Below are positions 35,716 to 40,962 of a stretch of DNA of 64,000 bases, one piece after another (the first letter of the stretch is position 1; every line of letters starts with the position of its first letter). The stretch covers positions 682,001 through 746,000 of the forward strand of contig JAZKBK010000001.1 of assembly GCA_040388625.1 (NCBI GenBank), written 5' to 3'. The translations under genes were made by a program, and so were the position numbers. The notes under the pieces are model-generated. The model was not told where the DNA came from, searched no databases, and saw only the letters and a list, made by a program, of their open reading frames with translations. The DNA is from Gemmatimonadota bacterium (GTDB lineage: Bacteria > Gemmatimonadota > Gemmatimonadetes > Gemmatimonadales > Gemmatimonadaceae).

Positions 35716-36579
35716 TCAGGAGCGGGCAGTCTCCGCTACCTTGTCCAGCTCGGCCAGTCGAGCTTCGAGCTGGCGGATGAGATCAGTCTGCGCGCGCAGC
35801 GTCGCGTCCTGATGGTGCAGCTGCACGTGCGTCCGCTCCAGGCGATCCACGGCGTTCACCACCTGCCCTTCCACTGCAACCAGTCGTTGCTCGGCAGCGA
35901 TGGCGCGCCGCTCGGCGGCACCGACCGCGTCGCGCAACTTGTGTATGACGTCGCTCGTCCCCGCGCGCTGTGCTGCGCGGAGCCGCTCGACCTCGCGCTC
36001 CAGGCCAGCTACCGAACTTGCATGCTCGGCGCGCATCCGCGTCGTCACGTCGTGCAACGCGGACACTGCTTCGAAACGCGCGTCACGTTCGTAAAACCGG
36101 GCGTACGCCAGCTCGAACAACGTCGCCAGCGGCGCCGCACGCTCGAGGAGCTTGGACGAAGACCGGCGACTCGAATCGTACAGCGCCAGCGCGGCTGCAA
36201 GCGCGCCCTCGAAGACGACGCCCTTGAGCAGGAGTCTGAAGTCGCCCACCCCGGCATCGACGCCAAGCAGGCGTGCGTATTGCGACCCCTGGTCTCCGAC
36301 GTCCGCGAACCGCTGGCCCGCCAGCACCGCGTACTGCACCGTTGGCGGCAGATGATCGAGCGCGAGGAGTGCGTAGGGCGGAAGTGCACCGTCGGGCGCA
36401 CTGTCAGCCACCAGTTGTTCGTTGACCAGCGCGTTGCGCCGCGGATCGACCGTGAGCAGCACGAAGCCGGTGCGCCTGTCGCCACCGGAAAGCTCTTCGT
36501 GGACCAATCGGAGCGCTGCAGAGGCGTCCGGGGCCAGAGCAAGATCAGCCGCGAGCGCGGGAAGAGATTTCACGGACAT
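35716..36579 (-). CDS. Unknown protein: globular (possibly GAF-like) N-terminus plus coiled coil
   Basis: I do not recognise this 287-residue protein. Residues 1-165 look globular, with short strands and helices (FVLLTVDPRRNALVNEQLVAD, LLKGVVFEGALAAALALYD) in an order reminiscent of a degenerate GAF sensor domain. Residues about 170-285 are a long heptad-rich coiled coil (GLEREVERLRAAQRAG, RRAIAAEQRLVAVEGQVVNAVDRLE, LIRQLEARLAELDKV). There is no signal peptide or membrane segment. It is probably co-transcribed with trpD from a promoter with a perfect TTGACA. A structural or signalling adaptor role is possible but unproven. Confidence 0.7.
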   Translation of the reverse strand: MSVKSLPALAADLALAPDASAALRLVHEELSGGDRRTGFVLLTVDPRRNALVNEQLVADSAPDGALPPYALLALDHLPPTVQYAVLAGQRFADVGDQGSQYARLLGVDAGVGDFRLLLKGVVFEGALAAALALYDSSRRSSSKLLERAAPLATLFELAYARFYERDARFEAVSALHDVTTRMRAEHASSVAGLEREVERLRAAQRAGTSDVIHKLRDAVGAAERRAIAAEQRLVAVEGQVVNAVDRLERTHVQLHHQDATLRAQTDLIRQLEARLAELDKVAETARS

Positions 36580-36590
36580 CCGATGCTGCG

Positions 36591-36619
36591 AGTTTGCGTC
36601 CTAAATCGTGACTTGTCAA
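36591..36619 (-). promoter_or_regulatory. Candidate promoter for the coiled-coil gene and trpD
   Basis: On the minus strand a perfect TTGACA (36619-36614) is followed after 17 bases by CAAACT (36596-36591), a weak -10. The start codon at 36579 is only 11 bases beyond, so any leader would be very short. It is back-to-back with the truA promoter. Confidence 0.45.
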
Positions 36620-36665
36620 TGCTTTGCGTTGCATCGGCGCACAGATTTCCTGCGCGGCGAATTGC

Positions 36666-36693
36666 TTGACATCATCGGTCGACCGGATAACTT
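36666..36693 (+). promoter_or_regulatory. Candidate truA promoter, possibly leaderless
   Basis: A perfect TTGACA (36666-36671) is followed after 16 bases by TAACTT (36688-36693), which keeps the first, second and last consensus -10 bases. The truA ATG begins seven bases after this hexamer, so transcription would start at or next to the start codon. No ribosome-binding site can fit. This block leads about 17 kb of plus-strand genes. Confidence 0.5.
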
Positions 36694-36700
36694 CCGGCCC

Positions 36701-37480
36701 ATGCGGGAGCGGACCGTGCAACTCGTACTGCAGTATGACGGGTCACGGTTCGCCGGATGGCAGCGCCAGCCGGCAACGGCGACGGTTCAGGGTGCTGTCG
36801 AAGGCGTACTCGAACGACTGTTCGAACGCCGGGTAACGTTGATCGGAGCTGGACGGACAGACGCAGGGGTTCACGCGCGAGGACAGGCTGCGCACGTGCG
36901 AGTGCCGGAGACGTGGAACGCCTCCAAACTTCGCCGAGCGCTCAACTCGCTGCTCCCACACGACGTCTGGATCGCACAGGCGCACAACGTTACCGATCAA
37001 TTCCACGCCCGCTACAGCGCCATTTCGCGACGATATACGTATCAGCTGGGGACGGACGACGAGTCCGCCTCACCATTCAGGCGCAGGTACGAATGGCGCG
37101 TCCCATGGCAATTGCACGATGAATCGGCGCTGTCGACCGCAGCCGAATCACTCCTGGGCGAGCATCAGTTCTACGGCTTCGCGGTTCGCGGCACGGCCCC
37201 GGAAACCGATCAGCACCGCTGCACCGTGACCTACGCCGGGTGGGCGCGACGCGGTGGGCGGCTCGATTTCACCATCGAGGCGAACCGATTCTTGCACCAT
37301 ATGGTGCGCTTCCTGGTCGGCACGATGATAGACGTCGCGGCGGGACGCAGGAAACCCGAATCCTTCCTCGAGTTGCTTGCCGCACCGAACAACCTCGCCG
37401 TCTCCCCGCCGGCCCCGTCGCACGGTCTGTTTCTCGACCGGGTGACCTATCCGGCGCACTTCTATCTTGAGGGCGTATGA
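36701..37480 (+). CDS. truA: tRNA pseudouridine(38-40) synthase
   Basis: TruA makes pseudouridine at tRNA positions 38-40. The 259-residue protein has YDGSRFAGWQRQP, the catalytic Asp54 in GAGRTDAGVHARGQ, SRRYTYQL with the flipping Tyr, and RFLHHMVRFLVGTM. I start at Met 36701 because an upstream extension is not family-like and the promoter lies directly before this codon. It is the first gene of a long plus-strand run and overlaps the next gene by ATGA. Confidence 0.95.
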   Translation: MRERTVQLVLQYDGSRFAGWQRQPATATVQGAVEGVLERLFERRVTLIGAGRTDAGVHARGQAAHVRVPETWNASKLRRALNSLLPHDVWIAQAHNVTDQFHARYSAISRRYTYQLGTDDESASPFRRRYEWRVPWQLHDESALSTAAESLLGEHQFYGFAVRGTAPETDQHRCTVTYAGWARRGGRLDFTIEANRFLHHMVRFLVGTMIDVAAGRRKPESFLELLAAPNNLAVSPPAPSHGLFLDRVTYPAHFYLEGV

Positions 37481-38139
37481 AGATCTTCGTTCAGAGCGCA
37501 TCGGTCGCAGAGATCAGGGAGTTTGCTTCGGCAGGTCTGCTCGACGGCGTAGTTCTTTCGCCGGTGGACCTCGCGACCGAGGATCCATCGGCGACCCTGC
37601 TGGACAGACTCGCTGAAATCACCGTCGATTTCGGCGTTCCGGTTTGCGTGCCAGTCAGCGCGATAAGTGGCGCGGACATCTACCGGGAAGCGCGTGACAT
37701 CGCGCGAGTATCGGAGCATGCGATCGTGCAGATTCCGTTCGTCGAAGACGCCGTGTCGCCGATTCGAAAGCTGGTTGAAGACGGCGTGCGGATCTGCGCC
37801 ACGCAGGTGTATTCCGGCGCGCAGGCGTTCATCGCGGCCAAGCTCGGCGCATCGATGGTCGCAACCGACGTACGCGAGATCGACGCCCAGGGGCGTCCGA
37901 GTGCGGAGATGGTTGCGCAGATACGCGCGGTGATCGACAAGTGCAGACTCGAGTGCGACGTCGCAGTGACGGCGCCGCAGAGCTCCATCGCTTTCACGAG
38001 CTATCTGCTCGCCGGCGCCGACGTCGCATATGTCACGCCGGAGTTGTTCGGCTCGTTGCTTGTGCATTCGCTCACGGACCGCGGCGTCGACCGATACCTG
38101 AGCGCGCTCTCCAGACGTCACAAGCCGAGGAGCCTGTAG
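37477..38139 (+). CDS. Transaldolase/fructose-6-phosphate aldolase-fold protein lacking catalytic residues
   Basis: This 220-residue protein aligns without gaps at its N-terminal half to the small transaldolase/FSA family (MKIFVQSASVAEIREFASAGLLDGV; IPFVEDAVSPIRKLVEDGVRI; QVYSGAQAFIAAKLGASMVA; REIDAQGR). The key residues are changed: the Schiff-base lysine (FSA Lys85) is Gln85, Asp6 is Gln6, Asn28 is Ser28, and Tyr131 is Asp131. The frame is intact and translationally coupled to truA by ATGA, so it is not a decaying gene. Known transaldolase chemistry is impossible without the lysine. It may be a pseudoenzyme, a sugar-phosphate binding protein or a new activity. Fold assignment is firm; function unknown. 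Confidence 0.8.
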   Translation: MKIFVQSASVAEIREFASAGLLDGVVLSPVDLATEDPSATLLDRLAEITVDFGVPVCVPVSAISGADIYREARDIARVSEHAIVQIPFVEDAVSPIRKLVEDGVRICATQVYSGAQAFIAAKLGASMVATDVREIDAQGRPSAEMVAQIRAVIDKCRLECDVAVTAPQSSIAFTSYLLAGADVAYVTPELFGSLLVHSLTDRGVDRYLSALSRRHKPRSL

Positions 38140-38142
38140 GCA

Positions 38143-39534
38143 ATGAAGCGGATAGCTGTGGTCGCGATCATCGCAGCGGCGATCGCATGCAAGGGCGGAT
38201 CATCCAAGGCGCAACAGATTACCGTCGCGCAACCCTCTGCCAACGCGCAGGTCGATGCGTCCCGGCGCACGGCGATCACGGCTGCGGTCGCGCGCGTCGC
38301 ACCGAGCGTTGTGACTGTACAGACGGAAGCAGTGGAGCACGTTCCGGCGGACATCATGGAGCAGTTCTTCGGCGGAAACTCCGCCGAGCGCCCCGTAGCG
38401 GGTCTTGGCTCGGGCTTCATATTGCGCAAGGACGGCGTGATACTCACCAACGCGCACGTCGTCCGCGGAGCAACACGAATCTCGGTAGCGCTGCGCGACG
38501 GAACGACGTATGTCGCCAAGCTCGTCGGCGTGGATGACGTGAACGATCTCGCCGTGCTCAAGGTCGACGCCTCCAACCTTCCTGTCGCACCACTTGGCAA
38601 CTCATCGTCACTGATCGTCGGCGAGTGGGCGATCGCCATCGGCAACCCGTACGGTTTCGTGCTCGCCAATACGGAGCCAAGTGTTACTGTGGGAGTCGTC
38701 AGTGGCGTCGGGCGCAATCTCGTGGCTCCGCCACCAGACGCGGGAAATGGTGCGTACGTCGATATGATCCAGACGGACGCGGCGATCAATCCCGGCAATT
38801 CGGGCGGTCCGCTGGTGGACGCCGCGGGCGAGGTCATCGGCGTGAACAGCTCGATCTACTCTCCCAGTGGCGGCTCAGTCGGACTCGGCTTTGCCATTCC
38901 GATCAACCGCGCAGCACGCGTCGCAGACGACCTGCTCACGCACGGCTCGGTTCGCCGTCCATGGATCGGCGTCAAGCCGGCAGTAAGCGAGAGCCGCACG
39001 CTGGGCCAGCGCCCTCAACGTGGCGTCACGGTCGCAGCGGTGACCCCCGGATCACCTGCGGCATCGGCTGGAATCCGCAGCGGAGACGTGATAGTACGCG
39101 TCGACGCCCGACAGATACGGAACGCATACGACTGGGAAGCGGAGTTGCTGGAGCTGAGAGTCGGCGAGACGATTCCGATCACGTTGCAGCGAAGCGGGTC
39201 GGACAAGACCGTGAACGTGCGCATTGCGGATCTACCCGAGGTGAACGCGCCGCGAGTAACGGTGCTGCACGAGATCGAGCTGACGACGCTCACACCCGCG
39301 ATTCGCTCGGAGCGCAACATCAGAAGTCAGTCCGGCGCCTACGTACAGAACGTGAGCCCGCGCGTCTCGGCGCAGATCGGGCTCGCGCAGGGTGACGTGA
39401 TAGTTCAGGTGAACACAACGCGGATCACAAGCGCCGAAGATGCCGCGGCGGCGCTCAACAGCGGGAGAGGTGTGGTAGTGATGTATGTCGAACGGCAGGG
39501 CCAGTTCTACTCGACCGAGTTCGTGACGCAGTAG
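38143..39534 (+). CDS. DegP/HtrA-type lipoprotein serine protease
   Basis: This 463-residue trypsin-like protease is predicted to be a lipoprotein: MKRIAVVAIIAAAIAC ends with a lipobox Cys16. The catalytic triad is His105 (LTNAHVV), Asp135 (NDLAVLK) and Ser220 (GNSGGPLV). Two PDZ-like domains follow (about 265-350 and 375-460), the first with GVTVAAVTPGSPAASAGIRSGDVIV. It should act in envelope protein quality control. The gene starts four bases after the transaldolase-like gene. The order is protease then PDZ-PDZ, as in DegP/DegQ, but anchored by lipid. Confidence 0.92.
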   Translation: MKRIAVVAIIAAAIACKGGSSKAQQITVAQPSANAQVDASRRTAITAAVARVAPSVVTVQTEAVEHVPADIMEQFFGGNSAERPVAGLGSGFILRKDGVILTNAHVVRGATRISVALRDGTTYVAKLVGVDDVNDLAVLKVDASNLPVAPLGNSSSLIVGEWAIAIGNPYGFVLANTEPSVTVGVVSGVGRNLVAPPPDAGNGAYVDMIQTDAAINPGNSGGPLVDAAGEVIGVNSSIYSPSGGSVGLGFAIPINRAARVADDLLTHGSVRRPWIGVKPAVSESRTLGQRPQRGVTVAAVTPGSPAASAGIRSGDVIVRVDARQIRNAYDWEAELLELRVGETIPITLQRSGSDKTVNVRIADLPEVNAPRVTVLHEIELTTLTPAIRSERNIRSQSGAYVQNVSPRVSAQIGLAQGDVIVQVNTTRITSAEDAAAALNSGRGVVVMYVERQGQFYSTEFVTQ

Positions 39535-40962
39535 ATGCACGATACATATTCGTCACCGCTGTCCGCGCGATACGCGTCGCGCGCCATGCTGGAGCTGTGG
39601 TCGGCCCAGGAGCGCCATCTGCTCTGGCGTCAACTGTGGATCGCACTCGCGGAATCGGAGATGGAGCTTGGCATCGACATCCCCCAATCGGCGATCGCCG
39701 AGATGCGCGCCGCCGCTGCCAACATCGATTTCGACGCCGCGGCGAAGTACGAGCAACGCTTCAGACATGACGTGATGGCGCACGTGCACACCTTCGCCGA
39801 CGCGGCGCCGGGTGCGCGGCGCTTCATACATCTGGGTGCGACCAGCGCTTTCGTCACCGACAACGCGGACCTGATATTGATGCGGCGCGCACTGGCGATG
39901 CTTCGCAGCCGTGCAGTGGACGTCGTACGCGCACTGGCTGCGTTCGCAGAGAAGTGGAAGGACGAGCCGACTCTCGGTTACACCCACATTCAGCCGGCGC
40001 AGCTTACGACTGTCGGAAAGCGGGCGACTCTGTGGATCCAGGATCTCGTACTCGACATCCGAGACATGCAGTATCGGATCGACTCGCTACCGCTGCGCGG
40101 CGTCAAGGGAACTACCGGCACTCAGGCGTCGTTCCTGCGGCTCTTCAATGGCGACCACGCGAAAGTGCGCGAGCTGGACCGGCTCGTCACATCCAGAATG
40201 GGCTTCTCCTCCTCGATTCCCGTCAGCGGTCAGACGTACACGCGAAAGCTCGACGCCGCGGTGCTTGGCGCGGTGGCCGGCGTTGCAGCGAGTGCGGCGA
40301 AATTTGCCAGCGACATGCGCCTGCTGCAGTCGTTCGGTGAGGTGGAGGAACCGTTCGAGAAGGAGCAGATCGGATCGTCGGCGATGGCATACAAGCGAAA
40401 CCCGATGCGCTCCGAGCGGATCAATTCGCTCGCGCGGTTCGTGTTGTCGCTCGAGCCGAATGCAAACGAGACCCATTCGGTGCAGTACTTCGAGCGTACG
40501 CTCGACGACAGTGCCAACCGACGACTCGTGATCCCGGAAATGTTTCTTGCGACCGATGCGATAATGTTGATCATGCGAAACATCGCGTCCGGACTCGAGG
40601 TTCATCCCGCCCGCATTGCGCGCCGCGTCGCGGATGAACTGCCATTCATGGCGACCGAGGAGCTGATCGTGCGCGCCGTGGAGGCGGGTGGCGATCGCCA
40701 GGAAGCACACGAGGTGATCCGGAAACACAGCGTCGCCGCGGCGACTGCCGTGAAGGACGGCGCGAGTCGCAACGACATGCTGGACAGACTCGCTGCCGAT
40801 CCCGATTACGCCGTCCCCATCGACGATCTCCGGAGCGTGCTTGACGCACGTAACTTCGTCGGCCGCTCGAGCGAACAGGTTACCGAGTTCCTGCGCGAGG
40901 TCGTTGATCCACTGCTGAACGACTCGGCCGACACCCTTTCAACCGAGGCGCTCAGGGTATGA
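39535..40962 (+). CDS. purB: Adenylosuccinate lyase
   Basis: PurB cleaves SAICAR and adenylosuccinate in purine synthesis. The 475-residue protein has the fumarase-superfamily signature SSAMAYKRNPMRSERI, plus IHLGATSAFVTDNADL and GYTHIQPAQLTTVGKRATLW with the catalytic His. Its length and C-terminus resemble the eukaryote-like PurB branch. It begins on the base directly after the protease stop and overlaps purC by ATGA. Confidence 0.96.
   Translation: MHDTYSSPLSARYASRAMLELWSAQERHLLWRQLWIALAESEMELGIDIPQSAIAEMRAAAANIDFDAAAKYEQRFRHDVMAHVHTFADAAPGARRFIHLGATSAFVTDNADLILMRRALAMLRSRAVDVVRALAAFAEKWKDEPTLGYTHIQPAQLTTVGKRATLWIQDLVLDIRDMQYRIDSLPLRGVKGTTGTQASFLRLFNGDHAKVRELDRLVTSRMGFSSSIPVSGQTYTRKLDAAVLGAVAGVAASAAKFASDMRLLQSFGEVEEPFEKEQIGSSAMAYKRNPMRSERINSLARFVLSLEPNANETHSVQYFERTLDDSANRRLVIPEMFLATDAIMLIMRNIASGLEVHPARIARRVADELPFMATEELIVRAVEAGGDRQEAHEVIRKHSVAAATAVKDGASRNDMLDRLAADPDYAVPIDDLRSVLDARNFVGRSSEQVTEFLREVVDPLLNDSADTLSTEALRV

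Follow-up and report, generated by a model that had tools for sequence, protein, structure and literature searches.

A lysine-less small-transaldolase homologue at the truA locus of Gemmatimonadaceae: a probable family-wide pseudoenzyme

Introduction

Active enzymes of the TalC/FSA type are decamers, built as a dimer of pentamers with exchange of the C-terminal helix, and within these families the pair Glu59/Phe131 denotes a transaldolase and Gln59/Tyr131 a fructose-6-phosphate (F6P) aldolase. Lysine mutants have been engineered in the T. acidophilum enzyme (K86A, 3s1w) and in Francisella TalA (K135M, 3te9), and the same position carries Ala (genera g13, g20 and g24) or Met (g49) in natural proteins of the Gemmatimonadaceae. 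The two engineered proteins are laboratory mutants with otherwise intact sites, whereas the state in the Gemmatimonadaceae is natural, family-wide and selected. In the published transaldolase scheme, the small transaldolases form subfamily IV (PMC7092467). Pseudoenzymes in general act as allosteric partners, scaffolds or competitors, and combine a conserved fold and a lost catalytic motif with retention by selection, as does the protein described here; aldolases are unmentioned in the review concerned (PMC10211241). Our literature search for transaldolase pseudoenzymes or Gemmatimonadota FSA, which most subscription papers lay beyond, found no earlier description.

The window analysed here is a stretch of 64 000 nt from a Gemmatimonadota bacterium (contig JAZKBK010000001.1), and it encodes a transaldolase-fold protein without the Schiff-base lysine. 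We consider this protein, at a probability of roughly 0.55, to be a family-wide pseudoenzyme whose catalysis was displaced and which is kept for a non-catalytic role, probably in oligomer formation or partner binding.

Results and discussion

The features of the locus are collected in Table 1. A preliminary description made from the sequence had reported an intact frame with its start coupled to truA, and the coordinates, frame, start and overlap proved correct: the ATG at 37477 and the truA stop share 4 nt in the string GTATGA (TGA at 37478–37480), and the TAG stop ends at 38139. A promoter and terminator scan of positions 36500–39600 found none. Upstream of truA, at 35716–36579 (−), lies a gene for a 287-aa protein that had no Pfam match above cut-off and whose C-terminal half appears coiled-coil-like by eye.

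Table 1. Coordinates of the genes and of the altered or conserved sites within the window
Feature	Position	Strand	Basis
truA, tRNA pseudouridine synthase, upstream partner	36701..37480	+	Pfam PseudoU_synth_1 1.5e-33
Small-transaldolase (TalC/FSA) homologue without Schiff-base Lys, 220 aa, eight-stranded TIM barrel	37477..38139	+	TIGR00875, AlphaFold2, orthologues
Codon 6: Gln (Asp in active enzymes)	37492..37494	+	Alignment with relatives
Codon 28: Ser (Asn in active enzymes)	37558..37560	+	Alignment with relatives
Codon 85: Gln replacing the Schiff-base Lys, strand 4	37729..37731	+	Alignment, AlphaFold2
Codon 131: Asp (Phe/Tyr in active enzymes)	37867..37869	+	Alignment with relatives
Codons 160–161: Cys-Asp, new in the lysine-less crown (Thr-Glu in active relatives)	37954..37959	+	
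Codons 197–220: conserved C-terminal segment (HSLTDRGVDRYL here; HPLTDRGxDxFL in relatives) and basic tail	38065..38136	+	
HtrA/DegP-like trypsin-PDZ protease, downstream neighbour	38143..39534	+	Pfam Trypsin_2 8.3e-36, PDZ
purB, adenylosuccinate lyase, next in the conserved cluster	39535..40962	+	Pfam Lyase_1, ADSL_C

Membership of the transaldolase-fold family, as first proposed, was borne out by profiles and by structure prediction. The protein matched TIGR00875 with an E-value of 1.4e-30 and 106.3 bits, which is below the equivalog cut-off of 245.95 bits, and matched Pfam TAL_FSA with 43.6 bits, above the gathering cut-off of 27. An AlphaFold2 model built from 61 window and orthologue sequences showed an eight-stranded TIM barrel like that of small transaldolases and FSA (mean pLDDT 90.6, pTM 0.83) and placed residue 85 in strand 4. 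By VIA-align, this model aligned from end to end with the small transaldolases of T. maritima (1vpx, Z 30.2), B. subtilis and T. acidophilum, at Z of about 30 in each case; E. coli FSA gave a Z of 27.5.

Subfamily IV structures (TM0295 1vpx, 3r8r and 3s0c) share the full-length fold (Z 29–30, 26–29 % identity), the size, the C-terminal helix and the ancestry of the window protein, and the canonical small transaldolases of the phylum also share its gene position; however, the catalytic and phosphate-binding residues of this subfamily are replaced in the window protein except for Thr109. The F6P aldolase of subfamily V (E. coli FsaA, 1l6w) has the fold in common at only 19 % identity, and its Lys85, Asp6, Asn28, Gln59, Tyr131, Arg134 and Ser166 are all missing from the window protein. 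Since the nearest active relatives carry Glu59 and Phe131, the ancestor was a small transaldolase of the TalC type rather than an F6P aldolase; this refines the preliminary description, which spoke of an FSA/TalC site with Tyr131.

Its residue calls for the window protein itself (D6Q, N28S, K85Q and Asp at position 131) were all confirmed. Further changes were Pro for Glu/Gln59, R134E, S166A and R168Q, so that neither the Schiff-base lysine, nor Asp6/Asn28/Glu or Gln59/Phe or Tyr131, nor Arg134/Ser166/Arg or Lys168 of an active TalC/FSA enzyme is present. Judged from these residues, the protein has very likely lost its aldolase chemistry.

The orthologue survey covered the phylum Gemmatimonadota and included 179 Gemmatimonadaceae genomes, 126 of which had a homologue match. 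Residue 85 could be read in 124 of these (94 + 30), the other two being fragments short of the site. Lys85 was absent from the truA-linked copy in all 124 readable genomes, its place being taken by Gln, Ala, Glu, Arg or Met, and this rules out a local degeneration in one genome. Close relatives with Lys85, which the preliminary description had named as the observation that would count against it, were thus found nowhere in the family (0/124) and only in sister families; its suggested check on the conservation of Gln85 showed Lys absent throughout and the residue itself variable. In other Gemmatimonadota families the whole site (Asp6, Thr26, Asn28, Glu59, Lys85, Thr109, Phe131, Arg134, Ser166 and Arg168) was intact in 31/31 canonical-clade copies read from f2, f3, f4, f5 and f9. 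Most canonical copies of these families lie at the same truA locus, and the order truA-X-htrA/purB is common to canonical and lysine-less copies. All 103 loci examined in this respect, two extra copies aside, had truA directly upstream, mostly with a 4-nt or 1-nt overlap.

Diverged FSA matches in f7 (L152 and L153) and f11 (L154) were considered as parallel cases and rejected, as Lys85 is kept and truA was not found adjoining. In f7 (genus g91; L152 2001–3002, and L153), a 334-aa frame encodes the diverged transaldolase domain, with Lys85, and after it a CBS domain. An apparently split gene in G174 was set aside as evidence of a frameshift because the locus contains unknown bases (X in L217).

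Maximum-likelihood inference placed f2, then f3 (support 77), and then, in a single clade (support 100), every truA-linked copy from the Gemmatimonadaceae, with branching that follows taxonomy. Genera g49 (K85M), g22 (K85E, with Glu59 changed to Gln in most copies) and g32 (K85E, N28D and E59P) were basal within this clade, their exact order being weak (support 73–76), and all remaining genera formed a crown clade (support 100) in which Asp6, Asn28 and Phe131 are lost along with most of the phosphate site. The three basal lineages have lost the lysine alone or little besides. Pocket sites were kept at 9/11 positions in g22 and 10/11 in g49, with 32/43 and 35/43 of the other canonical-invariant positions, respectively, whereas mean retention in the crown was 12 % for the pocket versus 49 % for the other canonical-invariant positions. 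As the basal lineages keep the pocket that the crown has lost, loss of the lysine preceded loss of the pocket. Tree and synteny together indicate that the window homologue derives from the same ancestor as TalC at the truA locus, which rules out horizontal acquisition of an odd paralogue, and suggest that Lys85 was lost at the base of the Gemmatimonadaceae in one or more events.

The crown alignment was also searched for a substitute lysine, and no newly conserved Lys column was found; the only other well-conserved Lys columns, K2 (0.67) and K122 (0.76), are present in active relatives too. A migrated lysine restoring the Schiff base, including the one on a neighbouring strand against which the preliminary description had cautioned, is thereby ruled out. 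It is extremely improbable that the protein is still an aldolase or transaldolase, whether through a lysine at another position or by joining a catalytic subunit in hetero-oligomers: an extra canonical-type copy does occur elsewhere in two family genomes (Gemmatirosa L086 and G023 L101), but the crown has gained no conserved lysine and has lost D6, N28, E59, F131 and R134 too, and a canonical small transaldolase was not detected in most Gemmatimonadaceae genomes.

The extra copy of Gemmatirosa kalamazoonensis lies on a 1.04 Mb plasmid (NZ_CP007130, 129952–134566), besides the lysine-less L085, and falls among other canonical proteins in the tree, outside the truA-linked family. L101 (G023:C27) has a canonical-type frame whose residues from about 170 onwards are unlike the family and which runs to 423 aa, and is possibly a frameshifted or rearranged copy.

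A full-length classical transaldolase was present in nearly every Gemmatimonadaceae genome. In the window's own genome this is L001, which scores 490.9 bits against NF002881 and has its catalytic lysine within the motif NLLVKVPG. Genomes of the sister family f2 tend towards one transaldolase or the other: 25/26 of those with the canonical small enzyme gave no further PF00923 match. As the f2 genomes with only TAL had been picked for absence of the small enzyme, the 25/26 figure alone is informative. Both transaldolases occur together in the two f3 genomes that have a canonical copy. This pattern of co-occurrence suggests that the catalysis of the small enzyme was apparently displaced by the full-length transaldolase.

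Where the small gene is absent, htrA directly follows truA in 11/12 family loci, from several genera (L137–L142 and L144–L148), and likewise in three f2 loci that were inspected. In the one remaining family locus (L143, G005:C84), a 61-aa, internally deleted remnant separates truA from htrA, a gene loss in progress. The gene is therefore dispensable, which counts against the pseudoenzyme reading, and the repetition of clean loss indicates that position alone does not force retention.

Constraint was estimated by the Nei–Gojobori method, in which single dN/dS values are rough because dS was often near 1. The closest pair of lysine-less copies (L003/L004) gave 0.089 and the median of all pairs was 0.21; values within genera ranged from 0.03 to 0.48, nearly all below 0.45, and a single value of 0.90 came from comparing two different genes in Gemmatirosa. 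TruA gave similar values in the same genome pairs, from which it follows that the lysine-less homologue is retained under selection. Relative to TruA, the canonical enzyme of f2 evolves about three times slower (0.32) and the lysine-less genera at 0.5–1.2, indicating that constraint is relaxed yet substantial. Catalytic residues missing across orthologues and purifying selection are marks of a pseudoenzyme, as a lack of catalytic activity in vitro would be; the frame disruptions and dN/dS near 1 of a decaying pseudogene were not observed, reading frames being open in all full-length copies and a remnant occurring only in G005. A gene that is dead and slowly decaying, and persists only through its place between truA and htrA, would account for the clean losses and for this remnant, but is very unlikely given the open full-length frames, dN/dS of 0.03–0.45 with dS often near 1, and a constraint similar to that of TruA.

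Pocket positions in the crown varied more than the other sites that were once invariant (mean entropy 2.14 vs 1.41, permutation p 0.007). Fixed or nearly fixed in the crown were P87, Q116, G124-A125, G180, D23-G24 and P55, as well as the segment HPLTDRGxDxFL at the C-terminus; C160, D161 and P167 are new there, with C160 already in the intermediates, and the median net charge of the tail is 3, compared with 1 in active relatives, making it more basic. No single new active site was seen across the crown, and this conservation pattern makes it likelier that the function resides in the folded barrel and its C-terminal face than in a common new active site. The earlier view that selection preserves a non-aldolase function is supported by the 124/124 absence of Lys85 and by dN/dS similar to TruA, and the drift of the pocket in most lineages favours a function away from it.

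One subclade differs in this respect. In g13, g20 and g24, seven pocket positions are invariant, six of them new (A6, V26, T28, S59, A85 and A107) and one kept (T109), in an alignment with only 23 % of columns invariant; the new residues are small or uncharged. The pocket is not re-fixed in the window's own clade (g1, g5 and g7). This re-fixed cavity speaks against the pseudoenzyme reading in that branch, where it hints at a new pocket function or at core packing, and a pocket function there is possible on these alignments.

Two alternatives draw on this observation. The barrel could be a sensor or regulator that still binds a small-molecule ligand, a sugar phosphate in the ancestor, without turnover and signals to a partner; besides the re-fixed cavity, g22 and g49 retain Asp6, Asn28, Phe131, Arg134, Ser166 and Arg168, as if substrate binding had outlived catalysis. 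We regard this as rather unlikely, as phosphate-site residues 134, 166 and 168 drift between crown genera, including the g1/g5/g7 clade. A new enzyme, performing a different reaction through Gln85, Cys160-Asp161 or Asp133, for example, is improbable: the fixation of C160, D161 and P167 and the re-fixed sites of the Ala85 subclade would suit it, but no one set of new polar pocket residues is common to the crown, where Gln, Ala, Glu and Arg all occur at residue 85 and Ala, Gln, Glu, Arg, Ser, Thr and Leu at residue 6, and the neighbours truA, htrA and purB form no metabolic gene cluster.

Under the favoured pseudoenzyme reading, the protein is a vertical descendant of the small transaldolase (subfamily IV, TalC type) that the Gemmatimonadales carry at the truA locus; the full-length classical enzyme would have taken over the reaction, and the Schiff-base lysine was lost in the family ancestor, followed later by the rest of the sugar-phosphate pocket. 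The protein would have been kept because a function that it had, or gained, needs a folded, probably ring-forming, barrel and not catalysis. Homologues and the conserved C-terminus point to oligomerization, and the most likely function, which we narrowly favour, would be binding of a partner protein as scaffold, stabiliser or regulator. More tentatively, the genomes of the Gemmatimonadales may preserve the steps by which a pseudoenzyme is born, from sole enzyme (much of f2) through redundancy beside a second one (f3) and loss of the lysine only, in an otherwise kept pocket (g22 and g49), to re-use of the barrel for a different, lineage-diversifying binding function (crown).

Conclusions

Lysine-less copies of g22 exceed the TIGR00875 cut-off of 245.95 (L107 2001–2666 (+), 253.1; L109 1962–2627 (−), 250.6), and would be misnamed as active fructose-6-phosphate aldolase by the NCBI equivalog cut-off; for this reason, a dead enzyme may be included in pentose-phosphate models of these bacteria. 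A possible test organism is Gemmatirosa kalamazoonensis, a named species with both the lysine-less L085 and the canonical-type L086. If the pocket of g13, g20 and g24 is indeed a newly specified binding site, it would represent a new class of ligand-binding protein on a transaldolase scaffold. Pseudoenzymes are known already; here, a metabolic one is ancestral to a bacterial family, and one locus displays sister enzymes that are intact, intermediates altered at a single residue, a probable displacing enzyme and cases of clean loss, making the order of events readable and testable.
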